Below, in pieces: positions 2 through 14,329 of a stretch of 64,000 nt of DNA. The DNA lies in NCBI RefSeq assembly GCF_014640175.1, contig NZ_BMGL01000002.1:124001-188000 (forward strand). The letters are read 5' to 3'. The position numbers and the translations under genes are program-made. Every line of letters begins with the position of its first letter. The first letter of the stretch is position 1. The DNA is from Psychroflexus salis. Its GTDB lineage: Bacteria > Bacteroidota > Bacteroidia > Flavobacteriales > Flavobacteriaceae. Under the pieces are notes generated by a model. It saw only the letters and a program-made list of their open reading frames with translations, ran no database searches and was not told where the DNA came from.

Positions 2-1027
2 GGAGGAACTACAGGTAAATCTTTAGAAGTTGTGTTCACAAAAGAAGATATGCAAGAGCGCTTTGCCATGCTTGATGCCTTTAGAATGAAACAAGGGTAC
101 AAGCTCGGTAAAAAAACAGCTTGGTTTTCTGGTAAATCTATTATTTCAAAAAGAGATATTAGTAAAAATAGATTTTGGAAGACTGATTATTTGTACAAGG
201 TTAGATATTACTCTACTTTTCATATAAGTGAAAAATACCTTAGTTATTACTTAGAAGATTTAATAAAATATCAACCTGAGTTTTTTGTAGGTTTTCCATC
301 TACAATTTTAGAAATTGCTAAATATGGAATTAAATATAATATTAAATTTCCTTCTAACATAGTAAAAGCTATTTTTCCAACCGCTGAAACTATTACAACT
401 GAAACTAGAAATATTATTGAGACTTACTTCAATACAAAAATGTTTGATCAGTATGCATCATCAGAAGGTGCACCTTTTATTTTTGAATGTGAAAAAAGAA
501 ATTTACATTTAGAATTGCAAAGTGGGGTGTTTGAAGTTTTAGATGATAATGATCTTCCTGTGTATTCTGGTCGACTTATAGTTACATCATTCACAACTCA
601 TGGTACTCCATTAATTCGTTATGATATTGGCGACCGTATTACCTTAGAAGATGAGAATAAAGTGTGTGATTGTGGTAATAATAACCCTATGGTAAAGGAA
701 ATTTTAGGTCGTATAGATGATTTCATATATTCACCTGAAAATGGTAAAATTAATTTAGGAAATATTTCAAATACATTAAAAGGAACCCTTGGAATAAAAA
801 AATTTCAGGTAATTCAGGACTCTTTAGATGAGATTCAAATACTAATAGAAATTGATGACAATTTTACTGAAAAAAGTAAAAAGGTATTCATTGATAATTG
901 GATAGATAGAGTTGGTAATAAGATGGTTATAGAGGTTAGTCCAGTTGAAAAAATAAAAGTAGAAAATAGTGGTAAGTTTAGAATTGTTAAGAATAATATC
1001 AAGCACCTAATAAATGGGTATGCCTAA
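2..1027 (+). CDS. CapK/phenylacetate-CoA-ligase-like adenylate-forming enzyme (5' truncated)
   Basis: The reading frame is open from the left edge, so the gene begins outside the window; an internal GTG at 32 is not the true start. The first visible residues, GGTTGK, are the phosphate-binding loop of the ANL (adenylate-forming) superfamily. Further on, the segment TPLIRYDIGDR and a Cys-rich stretch with CDCG resemble the phenylacetate-CoA ligase/CapK branch. CapK-like proteins are common in capsule and exopolysaccharide loci, where they are thought to activate a carboxylic acid; the substrate here is unknown. The stop overlaps the start of the following glycosyltransferase, which implies translational coupling. 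It is clearly more AT-rich than the next gene. Family assignment is good, function is inferred. Confidence 0.8.
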   Translation, partial: GGTTGKSLEVVFTKEDMQERFAMLDAFRMKQGYKLGKKTAWFSGKSIISKRDISKNRFWKTDYLYKVRYYSTFHISEKYLSYYLEDLIKYQPEFFVGFPSTILEIAKYGIKYNIKFPSNIVKAIFPTAETITTETRNIIETYFNTKMFDQYASSEGAPFIFECEKRNLHLELQSGVFEVLDDNDLPVYSGRLIVTSFTTHGTPLIRYDIGDRITLEDENKVCDCGNNNPMVKEILGRIDDFIYSPENGKINLGNISNTLKGTLGIKKFQVIQDSLDEIQILIEIDDNFTEKSKKVFIDNWIDRVGNKMVIEVSPVEKIKVENSGKFRIVKNNIKHLINGYA

Positions 1028-2186
1028 ACTCATCCGCTTAACCACAGTGCCGCTATCCCTTCAGTTTTTAATCAAAGGGCAACCTAGATTTATGAGTAAG
1101 TTTTTTGAGGTGCTGTGTGTGTCTTCAGGACCTAAAGAAGAGCTGGAAAAAGTGTCGGTTTATGAACAGGTAGGGGTGAGAGAAGTCCACATGACGCGCC
1201 AGATCACGCCGGTGAAAGATTTAGTGTCTTTGGTTAAGCTTATACGCTTGTTCAGAAAAGATAAACCCGCTGTTGTTCACACTCACACTCCAAAAGCGGG
1301 AATTTTAGGGATGCTGGCAGCAAATCTAGCTAATGTGCCTATACGTTTACACACCGTTGCAGGAATGCCACTCATGGAAGCAGAGGGTGGTAAAAGAAAA
1401 TTGCTAGATGCTGTAGAAAAACTAACCTACGCTTGCGCCACTAAAATATATCCCAACAGCAAAGGATTAGAGCACTTTATCTTAGAAAATAACTATGCTA
1501 AAAAAGAAAAAATAAAAGTCATTGCCAACGGAAGCTCTAATGGCATAGACACTTCCTATTTCAATCCAGAAAACTACACACAACAACAAAACCAAACATT
1601 ACGAAAGCAATTAGGCATCCAAGAAGAAGATTTTGTCTTCATATTCGTAGGTCGTTTAGTTGGAGATAAAGGGATAAATGAGTTGGTTCAAGCTTTTAAG
1701 TCCCTTTCCTTTGGAGAGGGATTTAGGGTGAGGCTTTTACTCGTCGGTCCCCAAGAATCTGAACTTGACCCCTTACTCCCCGAAACTTTACAAGAAATAC
1801 AAAACAATCCGAATATCATTGCCGTAGGATTTCAAGAAGATGTACGGCCTTATTTTGCTATTTCAGATGCGTTAACTTTTCCAAGTTATCGAGAAGGATT
1901 TCCTAATGTGGTCATGCAAGCAGGAGCAATGGGCTTGCCTAGTATAGTGTCGGATATTAATGGTTGTAATGAAATTATTATTGAAGGCAAAAACGGATTG
2001 ATTATTCCAGTTAAAAATACCGAAACTTTACAAACAGCGATGTTAAGTCTTCTAGAAGATCAAGACTTGTATCAGCAGCTCAAAAGCAATGCTCGCGAGA
2101 TGATTACTTCCAGATACAAGCAAAAAGTAGTTTGGGAAGCCTTGTTGGAAGAGTATAAAAGTTTGTTGAAAGAGATTCCGAGTTAG
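1014..2186 (+). CDS. Family 4 glycosyltransferase (surface polysaccharide)
   Basis: A 390-residue GT-B fold glycosyltransferase. The N-terminal half carries VHTHTPKAGILGMLAA, the usual acceptor-side loop of PglA/CapM-like enzymes. The C-terminal half has FVFIFVGRLVGDKG and the donor-site region SYREGFPNVVMQAGAMGLP. The second acid of the usual EX7E motif is Gln here, which is common in this subgroup as far as I recall. It should transfer a sugar from a nucleotide donor to a lipid-linked glycan at the cytoplasmic membrane. The start overlaps the previous gene by 14 nt; ATG at 1020 is an alternative. The last codons and the stop (I-P-S-stop) lie inside the first copy of the downstream repeat module, so the C-terminus may have been altered by that repeat. 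Confidence 0.88.
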   Translation: MGMPKLIRLTTVPLSLQFLIKGQPRFMSKFFEVLCVSSGPKEELEKVSVYEQVGVREVHMTRQITPVKDLVSLVKLIRLFRKDKPAVVHTHTPKAGILGMLAANLANVPIRLHTVAGMPLMEAEGGKRKLLDAVEKLTYACATKIYPNSKGLEHFILENNYAKKEKIKVIANGSSNGIDTSYFNPENYTQQQNQTLRKQLGIQEEDFVFIFVGRLVGDKGINELVQAFKSLSFGEGFRVRLLLVGPQESELDPLLPETLQEIQNNPNIIAVGFQEDVRPYFAISDALTFPSYREGFPNVVMQAGAMGLPSIVSDINGCNEIIIEGKNGLIIPVKNTETLQTAMLSLLEDQDLYQQLKSNAREMITSRYKQKVVWEALLEEYKSLLKEIPS

Positions 2187-2676
2187 TCGCTCCGCTTCAT
2201 TGCGAGTTTTTGTTTATTAATCTACTTAGAGGTCACTAAGTGTCCAGGTACTAATCGGGATGTACCGAAGTACGGCCACTGAATGATTTCAAACATGATG
2301 AAGTTGAAGCCATACACCCTTTAGGGCCGGGGCAAAATGGCTTAATTTCAACGAACGAGAGTAGAGTTGAAATTGTACCTAGAAGTGTTTACACTGAGTG
2401 ATTTCAACGAACGCGAGTAGAGTTGAAATAGTACCTAGAAGTGTTTACACTGAGTGATTTTAACGAACGCGAGTGGATTTGAAATAGTACCTAGAAGTGT
2501 TTACACTGAGTGATTTCAACGAACGCGAGTGGAGTTGAAATAGTACCTAGAAGTGTTTACACTGAGTGATTTCAACGAACGCGAGTGGATTTGAAATAGT
2601 ACCTAGAAGTGTTTACACTGAGTGATTTCAACGAACGAGAGTAGAGTTGAAATTGTATCGAAGTGAACCCGCAATA
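2175..2676 (+). repeat. Repeat module A: 170-nt head plus six 56-nt hairpin units
   Basis: First and longest of four related modules. A head of about 170 nt begins with ATTCCGAGTTAG, which also encodes the end of the glycosyltransferase. It is followed by six tandem 56-nt units whose hairpins start at 2345, 2401, 2457, 2513, 2569 and 2625, an exact 56-nt period. Each unit holds ATTTCAAC, a 13-nt loop, then GTTGAAAT (or TTTGAAAT), joined by GTACCTAGAAGTGTTTACACT. The module ends with a tail of about 23 nt containing GAACCCGCAATA. I see no long ORF and no known RNA family. Strand is arbitrary. Confidence 0.9.
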
Positions 2677-2954
2677 ATTCCGAGTTAGTCGCTGCGCTCC
2701 ATTGCTAGTTTTTGTTTATTAATCTACTTAGAGGTCACTAAGTGTCCCGGTGCTAATCGGGATGTACCGAAGTACGGCCAGTGAATGATTTCAAACATGA
2801 TGAAGTTGAAGACATACACCCTTTAGGGCCGGGGCAAAATGGCGTAATTTCAACGAACGAGAGTAGATTTGAAATAGTACCTAGAAGTGTTTACACTGAG
2901 TGATTTCAACGAACGATAGTAGAGTTGAAATTGTACCGAAGTGAACCCGCAATA
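2677..2954 (+). repeat. Repeat module B: head plus two hairpin units
   Basis: Second copy, directly abutting module A. The 170-nt head differs from A at only a handful of positions. Two 56-nt hairpin units start at 2847 and 2903, and the same tail (GAACCCGCAATA) closes it. The head carries a short inverted repeat, TCCCG then eight nt then CGGGA, which is imperfect in module A. The head also ends in a diverged hairpin-unit copy (ATTTCAAACATGATGAAGTTGAAG), suggesting that the head itself grew from the same unit. Confidence 0.9.
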
Positions 2955-3265
2955 ATTCCGAGTTAGTCGCTCCGCTCCATTTCTAGTTTTTGTTTATTAA
3001 TCTACTTAGAGGTCACTAATTGTCCCGGTACTAATCGGGATGTACCGAAGTGCGACCACTGAATGATTTCAAACATGATGAAGTTGAAGCCATTCACCCT
3101 TTAGGGCCGGGGCAAAATGGCTTAATTTCAACGAACGCGAGTGGAGTTGAAATAGTACCTAGAAGTGTTTACACTGAGTGATTTCAACGAACGCGAGTGG
3201 AGTTGAAATAGTACCTAGAAGTGTTTACACTGAGTGATTTCAACGAACGCGAGTGGAGTTGAAAT
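2955..3265 (+). repeat. Repeat module C: head plus three hairpin units, tail lost
   Basis: Third tandem copy. Hairpins start at 3125, 3181 and 3237, again at a 56-nt period. Unlike A, B and D, the last unit is not followed by the GAACCCGCAATA tail. The sequence breaks into GTACCGAAGTGTTTG and then unrelated AT-rich DNA that leads to the AbiE genes. This marks the left junction of the toxin-antitoxin cassette. Confidence 0.88.
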
Positions 3266-3375
3266 AGTACCGAAGTGTTTGTTTGAAAGCTTATAAATGA
3301 ACTCAAGGTGCATTAAAATAAATTAAAATAAACTATATAAAAGAATTTGTTTAATTTAGTGCATAAAAATGAACT

Positions 3376-4158
3376 ATGAGTACCGTTAAACCATCTAAAA
3401 TAAACAAGTTATTAAAATTACAGCCTCCCGGAGTTGTGTTAATTAGTAGTTGGCTGGTGGGGCAAGGCTACAGTCCAGAATTACTCAGGAAGTACCGCAA
3501 TAGTAATTGGTTAACATCCATAGGTACTGGAGCAATGATAAGAGAAAAGGACCAAGTTAATTACCTTGGTGCCATTTTCGGTCTCCAACGGCAATTAGGT
3601 TTGAGCATACATCCTGGAGCTAAAACAGCCTTATCGCTTCATGGAAAAGCTCATTTTTTAGATTTTGACCAGCAACAAGTTTACTTATTTGGACATTCGA
3701 AAGAAAATTTACCCCTTTGGTTTCAAAAGTATGATTGGAAAGTAGATATAAATTATTATACCACTTCTTTTCTTCCTGCAGATGAAGGAATGACATCTAT
3801 TCGTATCGATAACTTTGAACTGAGCATATCATCACCTGCTCGTGGGTTAATGGAATGTCTATTTTTAGCTCCACAATCACAAGATTTGATGGAGTGTCTT
3901 CAAATTATGCAAGGGCTTAATAATCTTCATCCAAAACAAGTACAGCCTTTGTTGGAACAATGTACCTCCGTGAAAGTGAAACGTTTATTTCTTTACTTAG
4001 CAGAATCGTGTAGTCATACCTGGTTTAAACACTTAAATTTAAAACAAATTGATTTAGGAAAAGGGAACAGAAGTTTGTCGAAAAAAGGAGTTTATATACC
4101 AAAATATAAAATCACCGTTCCGCAAGAAATGCAAAAAGATGAGTCCCCAGAATTATAA
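3376..4158 (+). CDS. AbiEi-family antitoxin (type IV toxin-antitoxin)
   Basis: A 260-residue protein resembling AbiEi antitoxins. The N-terminal ~60 residues look like a winged helix-turn-helix (LISSWLVGQGYSPELLRKY, then a wing-like segment with SIGTGAMIR). The rest resembles the AbiEi C-terminal domain, including HPGAKTALSLHG. In characterised AbiE systems the antitoxin represses its own promoter and offsets the toxin without forming a stable complex. The gene overlaps the toxin gene by 20 nt, so the two are coupled. The 110-nt AT-rich leader between the repeat array and this ATG should hold the promoter, but I see no convincing operator. The whole cassette lies between repeat modules C and D. 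Confidence 0.82.
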   Translation: MSTVKPSKINKLLKLQPPGVVLISSWLVGQGYSPELLRKYRNSNWLTSIGTGAMIREKDQVNYLGAIFGLQRQLGLSIHPGAKTALSLHGKAHFLDFDQQQVYLFGHSKENLPLWFQKYDWKVDINYYTTSFLPADEGMTSIRIDNFELSISSPARGLMECLFLAPQSQDLMECLQIMQGLNNLHPKQVQPLLEQCTSVKVKRLFLYLAESCSHTWFKHLNLKQIDLGKGNRSLSKKGVYIPKYKITVPQEMQKDESPEL

Positions 4159-5065
4159 AGCGCAAGTAGATTTATTGTTAAGAGTTCTTCCTGAAGTTGC
4201 TAAGGAAAATTGTTTTGCCTTACATGGTGGTACAGCAATCAACTTATTTATTAGAAATATGCCTCGGTTGTCGGTAGATATAGACCTTACCTACCTACCA
4301 TTGGAAAATAGAAATAATGCGTTACAAGGAATAAGCAAAGCCTTGTTGCAGATTAAGAAAAATATTGAACAAGCTTTCACTTTATTCAAGGTTCAACATC
4401 TGGAGAACGAAGCTAAACTTTTGGTAAGCAGTGAGGATGCAACGATCAAAATGGAAGTCAATTTAATTAAAAGAGGTTGCTATTCTCCACCTCAGCATTT
4501 AGCATTATGCGAAAAAGCACAAGATGATTTTGAGGTTTACACAGAGATAGCAGTTGTTGAACAAGGGCATTTATTTGGTGGTAAAATATGTGCAGCCTTA
4601 GACCGTCAGCATCCTCGTGATTTGTTCGATATCAAATACATGCTAGAAAAAGATGGTTTTTCACCTGAAATAAAGAAAGGCTTTCTGTTCTATTTAATTA
4701 GCTCCAATAGACCTATCGTTGAAGTATTGTTTCCTATATTTAAAGATCAAAATCTAGCATTTAGTAATCAATTTGAAGGAATGTCGCAGGCTAAGTTTGA
4801 TTATTTAGAATATGAAAAAACAAGAGAAACCTTAGTTCGTACTGTAAACTCAGCTTTAACAAAAGAAGACAAGGCGTTTTTAGTAAGCATAGAGGTTGGA
4901 GAACCTGATTGGAATACGTATGATTTTAGCCAATTCCCAGCTGTCCAGTGGAAATTGCAAAATATCAATAAGCTAAGCAAGAAAAACCCAGCAAAGCACA
5001 AAAAGCTTTATAATAAACTTGAAATGGAGTTTTCTAAATTTGAGAATAATAAAGACTTAAACTAA
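4139..5065 (+). CDS. AbiEii/AbiGii-family nucleotidyltransferase toxin
   Basis: A 308-residue protein with the DNA polymerase beta-like nucleotidyltransferase core of AbiEii toxins: HGGTAI at residues 29-34 and the metal-binding acids in SVDIDL (Asp47, Asp49). A downstream stretch, LDRQHPRDLFDIKYML, is typical of the family. AbiEii toxins cause reversible growth arrest and abort phage infection. The start ATG at 4139 lies inside the antitoxin gene. The C-terminus is Lys-rich (NKLSKKNPAKHKKLYNK). Both family and pairing are clear; activity in this organism is inferred. Confidence 0.86.
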   Translation: MSPQNYKAQVDLLLRVLPEVAKENCFALHGGTAINLFIRNMPRLSVDIDLTYLPLENRNNALQGISKALLQIKKNIEQAFTLFKVQHLENEAKLLVSSEDATIKMEVNLIKRGCYSPPQHLALCEKAQDDFEVYTEIAVVEQGHLFGGKICAALDRQHPRDLFDIKYMLEKDGFSPEIKKGFLFYLISSNRPIVEVLFPIFKDQNLAFSNQFEGMSQAKFDYLEYEKTRETLVRTVNSALTKEDKAFLVSIEVGEPDWNTYDFSQFPAVQWKLQNINKLSKKNPAKHKKLYNKLEMEFSKFENNKDLN

Positions 5066-5087
5066 ATAATGAAAAAAAACTGTATTA

Positions 5088-5478
5088 ATTCCAAGTTAGT
5101 CGCTCCGCTCCATTGCTAGTTTTTGTTTATTAATCTACTTAGAGGTCACTGAGTGTCCCGGTACTAATCGGGATGTACCGAAGTGCGACCACTGAATGAT
5201 TTCAAACATGATGAAGTTGAAGCCATTCACCCTTTAGGGCCGGGGCAAAATGGCTTAATTTCAACGAACGCGAGTGGATTTGAAATAGTACCTAGAAGTG
5301 TTTAGACTGAGTGATTTCAACGAACGCGAGTGGATTTGAAATAGTACCTAGAAGTGTTTAGACTGAGTGATTTCAACGAACGCGAGTGGATTTGAAATAG
5401 TACCTAGAAGTGTTTACACTGAGTGATTTCAACGAACGAGAGTAGAGTTGAAATTGTATCGAAGTGAACCCGCAATAA
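5088..5478 (+). repeat. Repeat module D: head plus four hairpin units and tail
   Basis: Fourth copy, on the far side of the AbiE genes. The head starts at ATTCCAAGTTAG and hairpins start at 5258, 5314, 5370 and 5426. Two linkers read GTTTAGACTG where the other modules have GTTTACACTG. The usual tail is present, followed by extra CCCGCAA repeats up to the next gene. The module supplies an in-frame TTG at 5448 ahead of the sugar transferase, but that is almost certainly not the real start. Confidence 0.9.
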
Positions 5479-5501
5479 TCCAACCCGCAACCCGCAATAA
5501 A

Positions 5502-6104
5502 ATGTACAAATCATCCCTAAAACCCACATTCGATTTTCTCGCTGCATTTTTCGGCTTGTTAGTGCTAAGTCCAATTTTTATAGTAACCACAATTGCATTG
5601 GCTATTGCCAACAATGGGAAACCTTTTTTCTTTCAAAAACGACCTGGGAAAAACGAACATATTTTTAGTATTATCAAGTTCAAGACCATGAACGATAAAA
5701 AGGATGCTCATGGTGATTTGTTATCGGATGCAGAACGTTTAACCGCAGTAGGTAAATTTGTCCGTAAGACCTCTTTAGATGAAATACCGCAATTGCTCAA
5801 CGTGTTAAAGGGTGACATGAGTTTAATTGGTCCAAGGCCTCTACTGCCTGAATATTTACCATTGTATAATCTAGAACAAAAAAAACGTCACAATGTAAAA
5901 CCTGGAATCACTGGCTGGGCGCAAGTCAATGGCAGAAATGCTATTTCTTGGGATGATAAATTTAAATTAGATGTTGAATATGTTAATCAACAAAGTTTTT
6001 TATTTGATTTAAAAATCCTAATATTAACTTTTAAAAAGGTTTTTGTCTCAGAAGGAATTAATCAAGCTGGTCAAGCTACAGCTACTAAATTTGAAGGGAA
6101 TTAA
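5502..6104 (+). CDS. Initiating undecaprenyl-phosphate sugar-1-phosphate transferase (PglC/WcaJ type)
   Basis: A 200-residue monotopic phosphoglycosyl transferase. It has one N-terminal hydrophobic segment (LAAFFGLLVLSPIFIVTTIA), the basic motif RPGKNEHIFSIIKFKTM, the catalytic Asp-Glu pair at residues 93-94 in SLDEIPQLLNVLKGDMSLIG, and GPRP. It transfers a sugar phosphate from a UDP-sugar to undecaprenyl phosphate, the first membrane step of glycan assembly. ATG at 5502 is preferred because it gives the family's usual N-terminus; the longer TTG start at 5448 would translate repeat sequence. The next gene overlaps by one base. With an acetyltransferase partner the sugar is plausibly bacillosamine-like, but that is inference. 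Confidence 0.9.
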   Translation: MYKSSLKPTFDFLAAFFGLLVLSPIFIVTTIALAIANNGKPFFFQKRPGKNEHIFSIIKFKTMNDKKDAHGDLLSDAERLTAVGKFVRKTSLDEIPQLLNVLKGDMSLIGPRPLLPEYLPLYNLEQKKRHNVKPGITGWAQVNGRNAISWDDKFKLDVEYVNQQSFLFDLKILILTFKKVFVSEGINQAGQATATKFEGN

Positions 6105-6718
6105 TGAAAAAAATCAACTTATTTGGTGCTAGCGGTCACGCTAAAGTAATAATAGACATCATTGAAAGTAACGGCTTTGAAGTCGGTTACATCTTTGATG
6201 ATAATCCTGATATTAAGCTTTTTTTGGGTCGAGAAGTGATTTCTAATTACAATGATGTACAGTTAAATTCCAATCCACTAATTATAAGTATTGGTGATAA
6301 TGCAGTTAGAAAAAAAATAGTTAAAAAATTAAATGCTGTTCAACTTTCGCCCGGTATAGCTCATCCAAGTGCTATTATTTCACCCTATTCCAAAATTGGA
6401 AAGGGTACAGTTATAATGCCTAATGCTGTAATCAACTCAGATGCGTATATTGGTGAGAATTGCATAATTAACACCTCCGCTGTGATTGAACACGATTGTA
6501 TTATTGAAGATTTTGCTCATATTTCACCTAATGTTTCTTTAGCAGGTGGAGTGAAAATAGGCGAAAGTTCACACGTAGGAATAGGCACATCTATTATCCA
6601 ATGTATAAAAATAGGGAAAAACACAATTGTGGGAGCAGGAGCTGTAGTTTCAAAATCACTTCCTCCCAATTGCACCGCCGTAGGCATACCCGCAAAGCCC
6701 ATTAAATTTCATAAATAG
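6104..6718 (+). CDS. NeuD/PglD-like sugar O/N-acetyltransferase
   Basis: A 204-residue acyltransferase. The N-terminal nucleotide-sugar domain starts with LFGASGHAKVIIDII. It is followed by left-handed beta-helix hexapeptide repeats such as IGKGTVIMPNAVI and IGKNTIVGAGAVV. The conserved catalytic His lies in VIEHDC. PglD-type enzymes acetylate the amino sugar of UDP-linked bacillosamine precursors; NeuD acts on sialic acids. Pairing with the preceding PglC-like transferase favours the PglD role. The aminotransferase (PglE) expected in such a pathway is not in this window. The start overlaps the upstream stop (TAATG). Confidence 0.87.
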   Translation: MKKINLFGASGHAKVIIDIIESNGFEVGYIFDDNPDIKLFLGREVISNYNDVQLNSNPLIISIGDNAVRKKIVKKLNAVQLSPGIAHPSAIISPYSKIGKGTVIMPNAVINSDAYIGENCIINTSAVIEHDCIIEDFAHISPNVSLAGGVKIGESSHVGIGTSIIQCIKIGKNTIVGAGAVVSKSLPPNCTAVGIPAKPIKFHK

Positions 6719-8980: not shown

Positions 8981-10201
8981 TTAGTCAACTATCTGCACTA
9001 CTTTTCGGTACGGATAAGGCAAACTGTAGAATCGAGTTTCTCCAAAGCTCATTTTGGACCGTACGGTTTGTTTTATTTTTTTGTGAAGCCAAGGTATAGA
9101 AGCAACAGGAACATTAAATTCAGAAAAAGTAATTTGTCTGCATAGTGAAGTATAAAGCCCTTGGTTTTCGGGCATTAATTTTTGGTATTTTTCTTGATGA
9201 AATGCAGCCAGTTTATTTGAAGCACTTTGCATAATTAAATAAGTATCTTTTCCTTGATATAGTTGAAAAGCAGCGTAAGGGTGATAGTAATTTGTGAAAC
9301 CTAGAATTGGAAAAACAAACAAGAAGCTGAGGTATATTTTTTGATAAAAAGCTTTAAAATGAATCTGATTAAACGATAAATGTCTTTGTTTTGCAAAGTA
9401 AAAAAGCAGAAGAATCATACTTAAATTCCATGGCCAAACAGCATGATTGAGGGCTAGATGAAACGGACTAATATAGACTAGCGTGGCCAAGTGAAATACA
9501 ATTAAGCCTATACAAGCTATTTTTCTGTATTTGGTTAGCAAAACTATACCGGCAAGTGTTTCTAAGAAAGGAATAATAAAACCCAATGCTTTTATTATAG
9601 GAATTTGAGTGAAACTACGTTGAATACCTAATGTTTGTTCTAAAAATAAATAAGACCAATTTACATTAATAAAACCTAAATTGAATTTACATAAACCTGC
9701 AAATAAATAGGTAGCACTTAAGAGCAATAATAAATTTAAATTAAATTTTTTGGGCTGAAGCACATAAATGAAGCTTAATAAAATCATTTGAAATTGAAGA
9801 GGTTGTATGCGAATTACATCAAAAAAACACAATACAATTTCTATAAAGATAAAACTCAAAATAATTTTTGAATTGATTTTGTATAAACTGAAGGCAATAC
9901 ACAAAAAACTGATAAAAGCCAAACTAACATCAACAAATGCTAAAGCTTCAAAATCGATAAAATCAACGGCAGTTATTCTTGGAAAGACCCGGTACAATTG
10001 AAACCACAGTTTAAAGCTAATGAGCTTGGTAACTAACCAAGTAAGCAACAAAAGTCGGAAAACTTGTAGCGTATTTACCTCATTTAAACCAAATTGAATA
10101 AAGTATTTAAGCAAATGTTTAATTCGGCGATAAGCGAAGATTTTGAAACCAAATAGATAGATGTGCATAGCTATGAATGGATTGATATTTACTTTAATCA
10201 A
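8981..10201 (-). CDS. Multi-pass membrane protein, possibly HTTM-related
   Basis: A 406-residue protein with about nine to eleven hydrophobic segments spread over residues 50-320 and a soluble C-terminal tail of about 90 residues. Segments such as YLFAGLCKFNLGF and HLALNHAVWPWNLSMILLL recall the HTTM (horizontally transferred transmembrane) domain, related to vitamin K-dependent carboxylases. The match is weak and I cannot identify catalytic residues. A second, clearer HTTM protein lies at 48497-49816. The gene stands alone; degenerate microrepeats lie on both sides (8876-8956 and 10202-10268). Function unknown. Confidence 0.6.
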   Translation of the reverse strand: MIKVNINPFIAMHIYLFGFKIFAYRRIKHLLKYFIQFGLNEVNTLQVFRLLLLTWLVTKLISFKLWFQLYRVFPRITAVDFIDFEALAFVDVSLAFISFLCIAFSLYKINSKIILSFIFIEIVLCFFDVIRIQPLQFQMILLSFIYVLQPKKFNLNLLLLLSATYLFAGLCKFNLGFINVNWSYLFLEQTLGIQRSFTQIPIIKALGFIIPFLETLAGIVLLTKYRKIACIGLIVFHLATLVYISPFHLALNHAVWPWNLSMILLLFYFAKQRHLSFNQIHFKAFYQKIYLSFLFVFPILGFTNYYHPYAAFQLYQGKDTYLIMQSASNKLAAFHQEKYQKLMPENQGLYTSLCRQITFSEFNVPVASIPWLHKKIKQTVRSKMSFGETRFYSLPYPYRKVVQIVD

Positions 10202-10268
10202 AAATCCTAAATCCCCAATCTTAAATCATCAATTCCAAATCGAAAAATCCTAAATCGAAAAATCTTAG
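10202..10268. repeat. Degenerate microrepeat (AAATCGAAAAATCCTA)
   Basis: Loosely repeated AAATC/CCTAAATC words, including AAATCGAAAAATC twice in close succession. It fills the gap between the ABC ATPase stop and the membrane-protein start. Confidence 0.55.
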
Positions 10269-10960
10269 CCTTCAAAATAAGCTTCTAATTCTTTTAATGT
10301 AGCATCGTTTGTTTTTAAGTCCTTTACCAATTCGCCTTTATCTATTACAACAATACGTTCACAAACATCGGTAACATGCATTAAATCGTGGCTTGAAACT
10401 AAGATGCTAACTCCTTTTTGTTGGCTGAGGTCTTTAATTATTTTTTTTAAACGAATTTGAGTTGTTGGATCTAAATTGGCAAAAGGCTCATCTAAAATAA
10501 TAACTTCTGGGTTGCCGATTAATGCAGCTACAATACCTGCTTTTTTTTGGTTTCCTTTAGAAAGGTCGCGAAGGTATTTTTTTTGATTGAGAATTTCTCC
10601 ATGAAAAAAATCTTCAAATTGAGCAAGTAGTTGGTCTACATCAGCTTTACTTTGGTTGCGTAAATCGCCAACAAAATAAAAATACTCTTCTGGAGTTAGG
10701 TAACCTATTAAAAAACTTTCGTCTATAAACGAAGATGTAAAAGGTTTCCATGCTTCGCTTTGATGCACTTCAATTCCGTTATTGCTAATGCTGCCCGTAC
10801 TTGGCTGAATTAAATCTAGTAACAAACTAAATAGGGTTGTTTTACCAGCGCCATTATTGCCTACTAAGCCAAAACTTTGCCCTTTAGGAATGCTTAGTTG
10901 ATCGATGTTTAATACGCTTTTGCCGTTATATACTTTACTAATTTGGTTAATTTCTATCAT
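10265..10960 (-). CDS. ABC transporter ATP-binding protein
   Basis: A 231-residue ATPase with Walker A GNNGAGKTT (residues 34-42), signature LSKGNQKK (133-140) and Walker B VIILDEP (153-159), followed by an SSHD switch region. It most resembles exporter ATPases of the CcmA/NatA type. Its partner is the DUF5687 membrane protein encoded just upstream at 11082-12569 on the same strand, with a 121-nt gap. The transported substrate cannot be told from sequence. Confidence 0.92.
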   Translation of the reverse strand: MIEINQISKVYNGKSVLNIDQLSIPKGQSFGLVGNNGAGKTTLFSLLLDLIQPSTGSISNNGIEVHQSEAWKPFTSSFIDESFLIGYLTPEEYFYFVGDLRNQSKADVDQLLAQFEDFFHGEILNQKKYLRDLSKGNQKKAGIVAALIGNPEVIILDEPFANLDPTTQIRLKKIIKDLSQQKGVSILVSSHDLMHVTDVCERIVVIDKGELVKDLKTNDATLKELEAYFEG

Positions 10961-13153: not shown

Positions 13154-13203
13154 AAAGCACACCGAGTTTATCCTAAATTTTGTGCTTTCGAAAAATAATT
13201 TCA

Positions 13204-13270
13204 AAACTACTCACTACTCACTAATCACTACTAACTACTCAATACTCAATACTCACTACTAACTAACAAC
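13204..13270. repeat. Degenerate microrepeat (CTCACTACTAACTA)
   Basis: About 65 nt made of loosely repeated ACTCACTACTAACTACTCAAT-like words between the thioredoxin-fold gene and dusB. It is of the same style as the runs at 8876 and 10202 but with a different word. Confidence 0.6.
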
Positions 13271-13302
13271 AAGCAATATAAATGAGCAAATATTTTTTTA
13301 TG

Positions 13303-13310
13303 TAGCTTTG
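13303..13310 (+). promoter_or_regulatory. -7 box for dusB
   Basis: TAGCTTTG matches the TAnnTTTG consensus and lies 17 nt before the GTG start at 13328. Confidence 0.35.
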
Positions 13311-13327
13311 CAAAAAAAAAAATAGCT

Positions 13328-14329
13328 GTGGCTAAGATTGGTAATATAGATGTAGGAAACTTCCCTTTGCTGCTCGCGCCGATGGAAGATGTAAGCGATC
13401 CGCCATTTCGAGCACTGTGTAAAGAACAAGGAGCAGATGTGGTGTATACCGAGTTTATTTCGTCGGAAGGTTTAATTCGCGATGCAGCCAAAAGCCTAAT
13501 TAAATTAGATATTTACGAAAAAGAACGACCTGTAGGCATTCAAATTTTTGGAGCAAATTTAGATTCGATGTTACGTTCTGTAGAAATTGTTGAAAAAACC
13601 AAGCCAGATATTATCGATATCAATTTTGGTTGTCCGGTTAAAAAAGTAGTTTCAAAAGGAGCAGGTGCAGGAATATTAAAAGATATCGACCTTATGGTTT
13701 CTTTAACAGAAGCTATGGTAAAACATACTGATGTACCCATTACAGTTAAAACACGCTTAGGATGGGATCACGATTCTATAAAAATTGTTGAAGTAGCCGA
13801 ACGTTTGCAAGATGTAGGATGTAAAGCCATTTCTATACATGGCAGAACACGTGCGCAAATGTATAAAGGTGATGCCGACTGGAATCCGATTGCCAAAGTA
13901 AAAAACAACCCCAGAATGCATATTCCTGTATTTGGAAATGGCGATGTAAACACACCAGAGCGTGCTGTAGAGATGCGAGATAAATATGGATTAGACGGTG
14001 CTATGATTGGAAGAGCGAGTATTGGCAATCCTTGGTTTTTTAGAGAAGTAAAACACTTTTTTGAAACAGGAGAGCATTTAGCTCCACCTAGCATGCAAGA
14101 ACGAATTGATATTGCTAGAAGACACCTACAAATGGCGATAGATTGGAAAGGTGAAAAATTGGGAGTTTTTGAAACACGACGCCACTATACCAATTATTTT
14201 AAAGGAATCCCAGATTTTAAACCCTATAGAACTAAAATGGTAACTTGCGACAATCCGGCTGATGTGTTTGCTGCTTTCGATGAGGTTGAACAACTTTTTG
14301 GAGACTATCAATTCGAATCTGTTGTTTAA
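13328..14329 (+). CDS. dusB: tRNA-dihydrouridine synthase
   Basis: A 333-residue FMN enzyme that reduces uridine to dihydrouridine in tRNA D-loops. The start is GTG. Visible hallmarks are APMEDVSDPPFR at the N-terminus, the catalytic Cys102 in NFGCPVKKVVSKGAG, KTRLGW, the phosphate-binding SIHGRTRAQMYKG, and the FMN site GNGDV with MIGRASIGNPW. Length and motif order are those of the DusB branch. It is a single gene following a low-complexity gap. Confidence 0.93.
   Translation: MAKIGNIDVGNFPLLLAPMEDVSDPPFRALCKEQGADVVYTEFISSEGLIRDAAKSLIKLDIYEKERPVGIQIFGANLDSMLRSVEIVEKTKPDIIDINFGCPVKKVVSKGAGAGILKDIDLMVSLTEAMVKHTDVPITVKTRLGWDHDSIKIVEVAERLQDVGCKAISIHGRTRAQMYKGDADWNPIAKVKNNPRMHIPVFGNGDVNTPERAVEMRDKYGLDGAMIGRASIGNPWFFREVKHFFETGEHLAPPSMQERIDIARRHLQMAIDWKGEKLGVFETRRHYTNYFKGIPDFKPYRTKMVTCDNPADVFAAFDEVEQLFGDYQFESVV

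Follow-up and report, generated by a model that had tools for sequence, protein, structure and literature searches.

What are the hairpin repeats that lie between a glycosyltransferase gene and a sugar transferase gene of Psychroflexus salis, and how did they come to be multiplied there? The repeats form four related modules, designated A to D, each ending in a different number of hairpin units. They were analysed within a stretch of 64,000 nucleotides (G000, C2:124001-188000; G, L and C numbers denote genomes, loci and contigs), referred to below as the window. The explanation that we favour, with a probability of roughly 0.6, is that the hairpins are copies of a site targeted by a GIY-YIG nuclease, multiplied locally within a mosaic in which repeats form the borders of exchangeable cassettes. 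The nuclease would be of the kind of Ssn, which is reportedly a site-specific single-strand nuclease of the GIY-YIG type found in Neisseria together with its own genomic repeats, NTS.

Modules and hairpin units

The four modules of the original prediction were present, with starts at 2175, 2677, 2955 and 5088 (a 300-nt direct-repeat family), and modules B, C and D were 87%, 96% and 94% identical to module A. Tandem Repeats Finder gave scores of 298-556 for the 56-nt arrays and of 1168 for a 278-nt repeat. Hairpin units start at 2345..2625 (n=6) in module A, at 2847 and 2903 (n=2) in B, at 3125..3237 (n=3) in C and at 5258..5426 (n=4) in D. The predicted counts of 6, 2, 3 and 4 therefore hold, as does the distance of 170 nt from the head to the first hairpin in all four modules. 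Contrary to what had been proposed, the units are not all 56 nt long: 11 of the 15 are full 56-mers, and the last unit of each module diverges after about position 31. The core of every internal unit (11/11) reads GTACCTAGAAG, that is, it carries a 2-nt TA insertion; the four terminal units are without the insertion and read GTAYCGAAG. Because P. maritimus (G315) has the same hairpin type at a 54-nt spacing and without TA (C43:3542, 3596 and 3650), the unit of 56 nt seems to be one of 54 nt into whose core 2 nt were inserted.

The head of the module is a composite: a 5' repeat of about 55 nt (F3) is followed by one complete hairpin unit (u0), half of another, and F4, a further hairpin repeat that is unrelated to the first. 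At least three types of dispersed repeat (the hairpin family F1, F3 and F4) thus make up every module as a mosaic, and A, B and D also have a tail, F5; module C has no tail, and the AbiE cassette shared with P. maritimus starts at its end, at 3277. The copy pattern agrees with the earlier proposal that the array grew by duplication, as read from the sequence.

A hairpin family beside GIY-YIG nuclease genes

Units of family F1 have the form arm-CTGAG-tip-YCGAAG-arm', in which the core is constant and the arms and tip change compensatorily. The core may pair as C-G and T-A, tandem G.A/A.G mismatches and G-C, with an extra pyrimidine. The pattern CTGAGTG-N10..40-TGTACCGAAG matched 9 of 299 genomes of the taxonomic family, that of P. 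salis included, and the reversed control gave 0 matches; a looser pattern, CTGARTG-N8..38-GTAYCGAAG, matched 18 of 27 genomes of the genus, again with P. salis among them, and its reversed control gave 3 matches in total. Genome searches and covariance modelling had both been suggested in the original prediction. The searches found the window's own hairpin sequence again in the congeners G315 and G300, in agreement with a dispersed repeat, and the wider family in further genomes. The complete head was found in 4 copies in the P. salis genome, at this locus only, and the other genomes of the genus gave partial module matches (180 bp or less, in 9 of 26). The refuting condition of the original prediction, copies that occur only once in one strain, does not hold for the unit; the complete module was found at this locus only.

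The 143 distinct F1 units carry 114 distinct tips, which differ strongly yet pair. In the structure drawn for 49 units from other genomes, 87.6% of 727 cells were paired (65.0% in shuffled units), and the covariation of these units was 0.579, compared with 0.191 after shuffling and 0.197 or less after sliding. A covariance model, R1, was built with no sequence of the P. salis genome and many from congeners. It recovered 8 units of the 64-kb window, one u0 and one terminal unit per module, with E values from 2e-05 to 2.3e-11. Nothing else in the window was found at E up to 1, and the 11 internal units were not among the matches.

A GIY-YIG gene lies on the same contig, 16 kb upstream of the array (C2:109971-110258; L082:9971-10258). 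It encodes a protein of 95 aa that matches PF01541 and, by sequence, the UPF0213 structures 1zg2 and 1ywl, and it is bracketed by inverted F1 units at 9915-9959 (+) and 10264-10308 (-) of L082. The earlier statement that no named element has this organisation was too strong: hairpins of this family are found on the flanks of genes for GIY-YIG nucleases. A scan of genome contigs gave 204 GIY-YIG relatives, and the association was counted on the best 80 of them. The motif CTGAG-N4..60-CGAAG was present within 400 bp of the gene at 74 of these 80 loci (57 upstream, 71 downstream, 54 on both sides), and its density was 6.63 per kb near the genes (417 in 62,910 bp) and 0.33 per kb beyond 1 kb (93 in 283,924 bp), the more distant flanks being about 20-fold poorer. 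When three or more of the four arm pairs were required, the motif was retained at 72 of the 80 loci, with densities of 4.29 and 0.166 per kb (gene ends are approximate for most rows). The loose motif occurred at 2 of 11 AbiE, 2 of 29 23S-IVP and 1 of 9 DUF559 loci, which served as controls. Tip subtypes clustered on a nuclease tree of 92 rows (12 unlabelled, one spurious), with 24 changes against 39.0 in shuffles, and none of 200 shuffles was as low.

A second GIY-YIG gene of the P. salis genome (L182, C14:92895) has a repeat subtype of its own, CTGAGCGGAGTCGAAG, with tandem GTTGACTGAGCGGAGTCGAAGTCAAC units among its copies. F1 was absent within 1.5 kb of four more small GIY-YIG loci of this genome, counted with two genes in long frames left out. 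Two GIY-YIG genes from another subgroup (L210 7800-8500; L213 7540-8140) are flanked by TCATCCTGAA..TTTCAGGATC at the glycosyltransferase-sugar transferase junction. Carriage of F1 by phages was considered and rejected: IMG/VR gave 85 exact pattern matches, one per stretch, without arrays and mostly attributable to chance, and 3 of 80 stretches tested with R1 reached E 0.01. No description of the F1 family was found in searches of open-licence papers, and passages of a paper on the GIY-YIG superfamily (PMC1564403) mention neither UPF0213 nor such repeats.

The AbiE cassette and the surroundings of the array

The genes between modules C and D (Table 1) were firmly assigned to AbiEi and AbiEii. 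The segment 3277-5122 of the window aligned with 4832-6679 of the P. maritimus locus L226 at 90.7% identity over 1,852 aligned bp; the neighbouring orthologues gave a single aligned piece, mostly of the sugar transferase gene, with 79.0% identity over 580 bp. The cassette stands before the sugar transferase and acetyltransferase genes in the window and after them, two genes further on, in P. maritimus. F3 is found in direct orientation on both sides of the cassette in both genomes (window 2958 and 5091; L226 4710 and 6648). This comparison favours the recombination platform put forward in the original prediction. AbiE as an inherent cargo of F1 was ruled out with 11 loci from 10 other genera, none of which had an F1 unit with paired arms; the search covered 397 genomes, among them only two others of the Psychroflexus group and not P. 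maritimus.

A further row of toxin-antitoxin genes was found beside the trp genes of G299 (L238 3994-10860; G299:C4:74993-81859). It comprises ParE, PIN, PemK, ParE, PemK and DUF5615, with F1 units between several genes, and the corresponding place in G306 (C8, L237) has a smaller, reordered set (DUF433 confirmed in L237 only). Between the two genomes, the identity is 95.8% for a VapBC piece and 82.8% for trpA. At the glycosyltransferase-sugar transferase junction of congeners, G307 is almost gapless, G299 and G318 have GIY-YIG genes, G303 has an IVP fragment, and G309 has a HAD_SAK_2 gene and one further gene between F3 copies.

Table 1. Features of the array and its neighbourhood; positions are those of the window.
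Feature	Position	Strand	Remarks
Glycosyltransferase, upstream of array	1014..2186	+	PF00534; F4-like in-frame repeat near 1700-1735
Module A, F3 5' repeat (CCGAGTTAGTCGCTCCGCTTCATTGCGAG...)	2175..2230	+	overlaps stop codon of glycosyltransferase gene
Module A, u0, F1 hairpin unit (GGTCACT..GTACCGAAG)	2231..2275	+	held-out model R1, E 9.9e-06
Module A, F4 hairpin repeat GCCAT-ACACCCTTTAGGGCCGGGGCAAA-ATGGC	2309..2341	+	preceded by half F1 unit from 2277
Module A, 5 internal 56-nt units	2345..2624	+	TA-interrupted core (GTACCTAGAAG)
Module A, terminal F1 unit	2616..2665	+	intact core; R1 E 1.6e-07; then tail AACCCGCAATAATT (F5 word)
Module B	2677..2954	+	F3, u0 2733-2777, F4, 1 internal unit, terminal unit 2894-2943, tail; R1 E 1.2e-08, 4.3e-07
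Module C	2955..3277	+	F3, u0 3011-3055, F4, 2 internal units, terminal unit 3228-3277, no tail; R1 E 2e-05, 6.3e-06
Cassette common to P. maritimus	3277..5122	+	right edge inside F3 of module D
AbiEi antitoxin	3376..4158	+	PF11459, PF17194; PADLOC AbiEi
AbiEii nucleotidyltransferase toxin	4139..5065	+	PF08843; PADLOC AbiEii
Module D	5088..5478	+	F3, u0 5144-5188 (CTGAG and CGAAG intact), F4, 3 internal units, terminal unit 5417-5466, tail; R1 E 2.3e-11, 1.6e-07
Bacterial sugar transferase, downstream of array	5502..6104	+	PF02397
Acetyltransferase-like gene, after sugar transferase	6104-6718		

The remaining repeats of the modules also occur elsewhere. F4 consists of CACCCTTTAGGGCCGGGGCAA between the arms GCCAT/ATGGC. 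Diverged copies of it stand at C1:193228 and C7:121764, and it is similar to repeats found next to DUF559 genes. F4-like sequences numbered 8 in 8,640 bp near standalone DUF559 genes and 0 in 12,600 bp far from them (4 of 9 loci); DUF559 in large open reading frames (ORFs) gave similar figures (8 near, 3 far, 7 of 9 loci), and the IVP controls gave 5 near and 7 far, at 3 of 29 loci. An array of 65-nt units on the F4 motif was seen at C3:233720-234321; in L015 2210-3100 (G000:C3:233710-234600) it reads as about 14 tandem units of about 65 nt, with the F4 motif CACCCTTTAGGGCCGGGGCAAC and the arms CTTTTG/CAAAAG. F3 (CCGAGTTAGTCGCT..) and the tail word AACCCGYAATAA co-occur in G174, G309 and P. 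maritimus. One locus hinted that F3 and F5 might be repeats of 23S-IVP four-helix genes; this was rejected as a rule, as 0 of 29 IVP loci had an adjacent F3 or F5 (29 of the 30 loci fetched were used, and L291 was left out).

The linker of the glycosyltransferase itself (window 1700-1735) contains an in-frame repeat-like insertion, CCCTTTCC..GGAGAGGG. G307 has the same residues, G309 (L214 8080-8520) has an F1 unit and AACCCGYAA words in about 65 extra residues, and G303 has another repeat-like stretch. A promoter-like match (TTGAAA-17-TACACT or TAGACT) arises on the + strand in every full 56-nt unit, and 22 promoter-like sites were found in 2100-5600, where 9.5 were expected; these matches are probably a by-product of the repeat.

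Origin of the array and its relation to known systems

The modules would be mosaics of short non-autonomous DNA repeats that gather in a surface-polysaccharide gene cluster, and their hairpin units would each be a copy of the site at which a small UPF0213-like GIY-YIG nuclease acts, with the constant core CTGAG/YCGAAG set within paired arms and a tip that all change freely. The enzyme would likely cut the hairpin in single-stranded DNA, as suggested by the co-location of repeat and gene and by what is reported of Ssn and NTS, and such cleavage may have a role in the spread of the repeat. Copy number would increase locally through slippage or unequal recombination. The direct F3 copies, accompanied in the window by the hairpin array, would act as borders of the AbiEi/AbiEii cassette, and homologous recombination at F3/F1 borders, to which the two genomes compared point, could swap the cassette between sites and species.

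Several observations weigh against this explanation. Two of five covariation measures were not above shuffles (double-change pairs 238/500; pair types 86/500), the loose motif is missing at 6 and the paired motif at 8 of the 80 nuclease loci, and the nuclease tree has poor resolution (stars on 6 of 87 branches). Five nucleases are distant, with 39-44% identity: within 400 bp, L210, L213 and L093 lack F1 and carry a TCATnCTGA..TTCAGnATC repeat instead (in L093 an F1 unit lies about 450 bp from the gene), L090 has F1, and L184 has neither repeat. The core is broken in the internal units, so growth of the array did not need it. The repeat common to both cassette sites is F3 and not the nuclease-linked F1, so that the nuclease may matter for F1 only, and the F1 units of the P. 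maritimus stretch compared (13186-13446) are 6.6 kb from the cassette. At the 11 loci of other genera, the AbiEii relatives gave 3 loose matches but no F1 unit in which three of the four arm pairs form. The genes on the other side of VapBC are also 89.8-93.5% identical, which makes VapBC a weaker second case of a cassette. The comparison covered one genome per species.

Some of these facts would suit a doubtful but possible alternative, in which the repeats are old, immobile and inert, were multiplied by slippage, and had AbiE inserted among them by ordinary homologous recombination. It fits the interruption of all 11 internal cores, the limitation of the complete module to one locus and the AbiE relatives of other genera, which are without such borders; against it, an active family is indicated by the compensatory arms and tips across many genomes and by how closely the repeats are associated with nuclease genes, and the edges of the cassette fall on repeats in two genomes. 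The hairpins might also act in cis as RNA, being transcribed with the operon and ending or stabilising the mRNA so as to limit expression of the sugar transferase. This is improbable, although pairing is strong and the counted units of the window are all in sense orientation between co-directional genes (5/5). Among 151 F1 units, 41 were sense and 48 antisense between co-directional genes, 28 lay between convergent and 16 between divergent genes, 15 were within ORFs of at least 100 aa and 3 were at edges. Rfam gave no relevant match at gathering thresholds; when E values of up to 10 were admitted, it gave two matches at chance level, both within the AbiE genes. Three terminator-like sites were found in 2100-5600, each of them on the - strand, a number not above that in shuffled sequences. 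On these grounds (Rfam, unbiased orientation and no terminator at the hairpins) an RNA element was rejected, and the structured RNA of the original prediction is not supported.

Chromosomal integrons have toxin-antitoxin cassettes separated by folded repeats, and a platform of this type, with attC-like hairpins and a tyrosine recombinase shuffling the cassettes, would agree with the F1 units between several genes in G299:C4 and the reordered set in G306:C8. It is very unlikely here: attC cores (RYYYAAC..GTTRRRY) were present in 0 of 143 F1 units, the inner stem has no constant sequence, and the genes of the G299:C4 row lie on both strands.

The target-site explanation draws its interest from tying the intergenic repeats of many Bacteroidota loci to one nuclease family, through co-location, covariation and subtype clustering, so that the partner of the repeat becomes directly testable. 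It also offers a specific example of repeats at the edges of a toxin-antitoxin cassette whose position differs between two species, and this is relevant to the exchange of defence and surface genes where no integrase is obvious (an integrase search was not made). In a more speculative extension, hairpins cut in single-stranded form by small GIY-YIG enzymes might be the exchange borders of toxin-antitoxin cassettes at surface-polysaccharide and other Bacteroidota loci, as a platform free of integrase, and the core-interrupted units might protect or stabilise long arrays.

The likeness to Ssn and NTS would lie in the arrangement: there too a small GIY-YIG gene is said to have a matching repeat adjacent to it, and the repeat subtype tends to follow the nuclease subgroup. 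The F1 tip differs in being an expanded hypervariable hairpin, and the tandem arrays with interrupted cores differ as well.

Neisserial intergenic mosaic elements (NIMEs) are described, in the accessible part of PMC3898611, as arrays of unrelated short repeats of 200-2700 bp in Neisseria, which border inserted genes such as pilC1 and for which a recombination-promoting role was suggested. The window resembles them in being a mosaic of several intergenic repeat families that borders exchanged genes; the repeat families are others, the cargo is a toxin-antitoxin pair, and the NIME repeat dRS3, ATTCCC(N8)GGGAAT, had 0 matches in the 64 kb. Repetitive extragenic palindromes (REPs) are short, occur singly and grouped, and include CGTC REPs described without a dedicated transposase (PMC3733652, accessible part). 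In contrast to REPs and their REP-associated tyrosine transposases (RAYTs), as portrayed there, the F1 consensus core has no GTAG or CGTC tag and its partner is a GIY-YIG gene. A RAYT/REP origin was rejected, as the only Y1_Tnp gene of the P. salis genome has no adjacent F1 hairpin; the only matches within 1.5 kb of it are two loose ones that overlap each other, about 1.4 kb off and with tips of more than 50 nt. The array is not an isolated new element. Mosaic intergenic repeats are already known as a kind from the NIMEs; its organisation is nearest to NIMEs and groups of REPs, from which it differs in sequences, partner gene and cargo.

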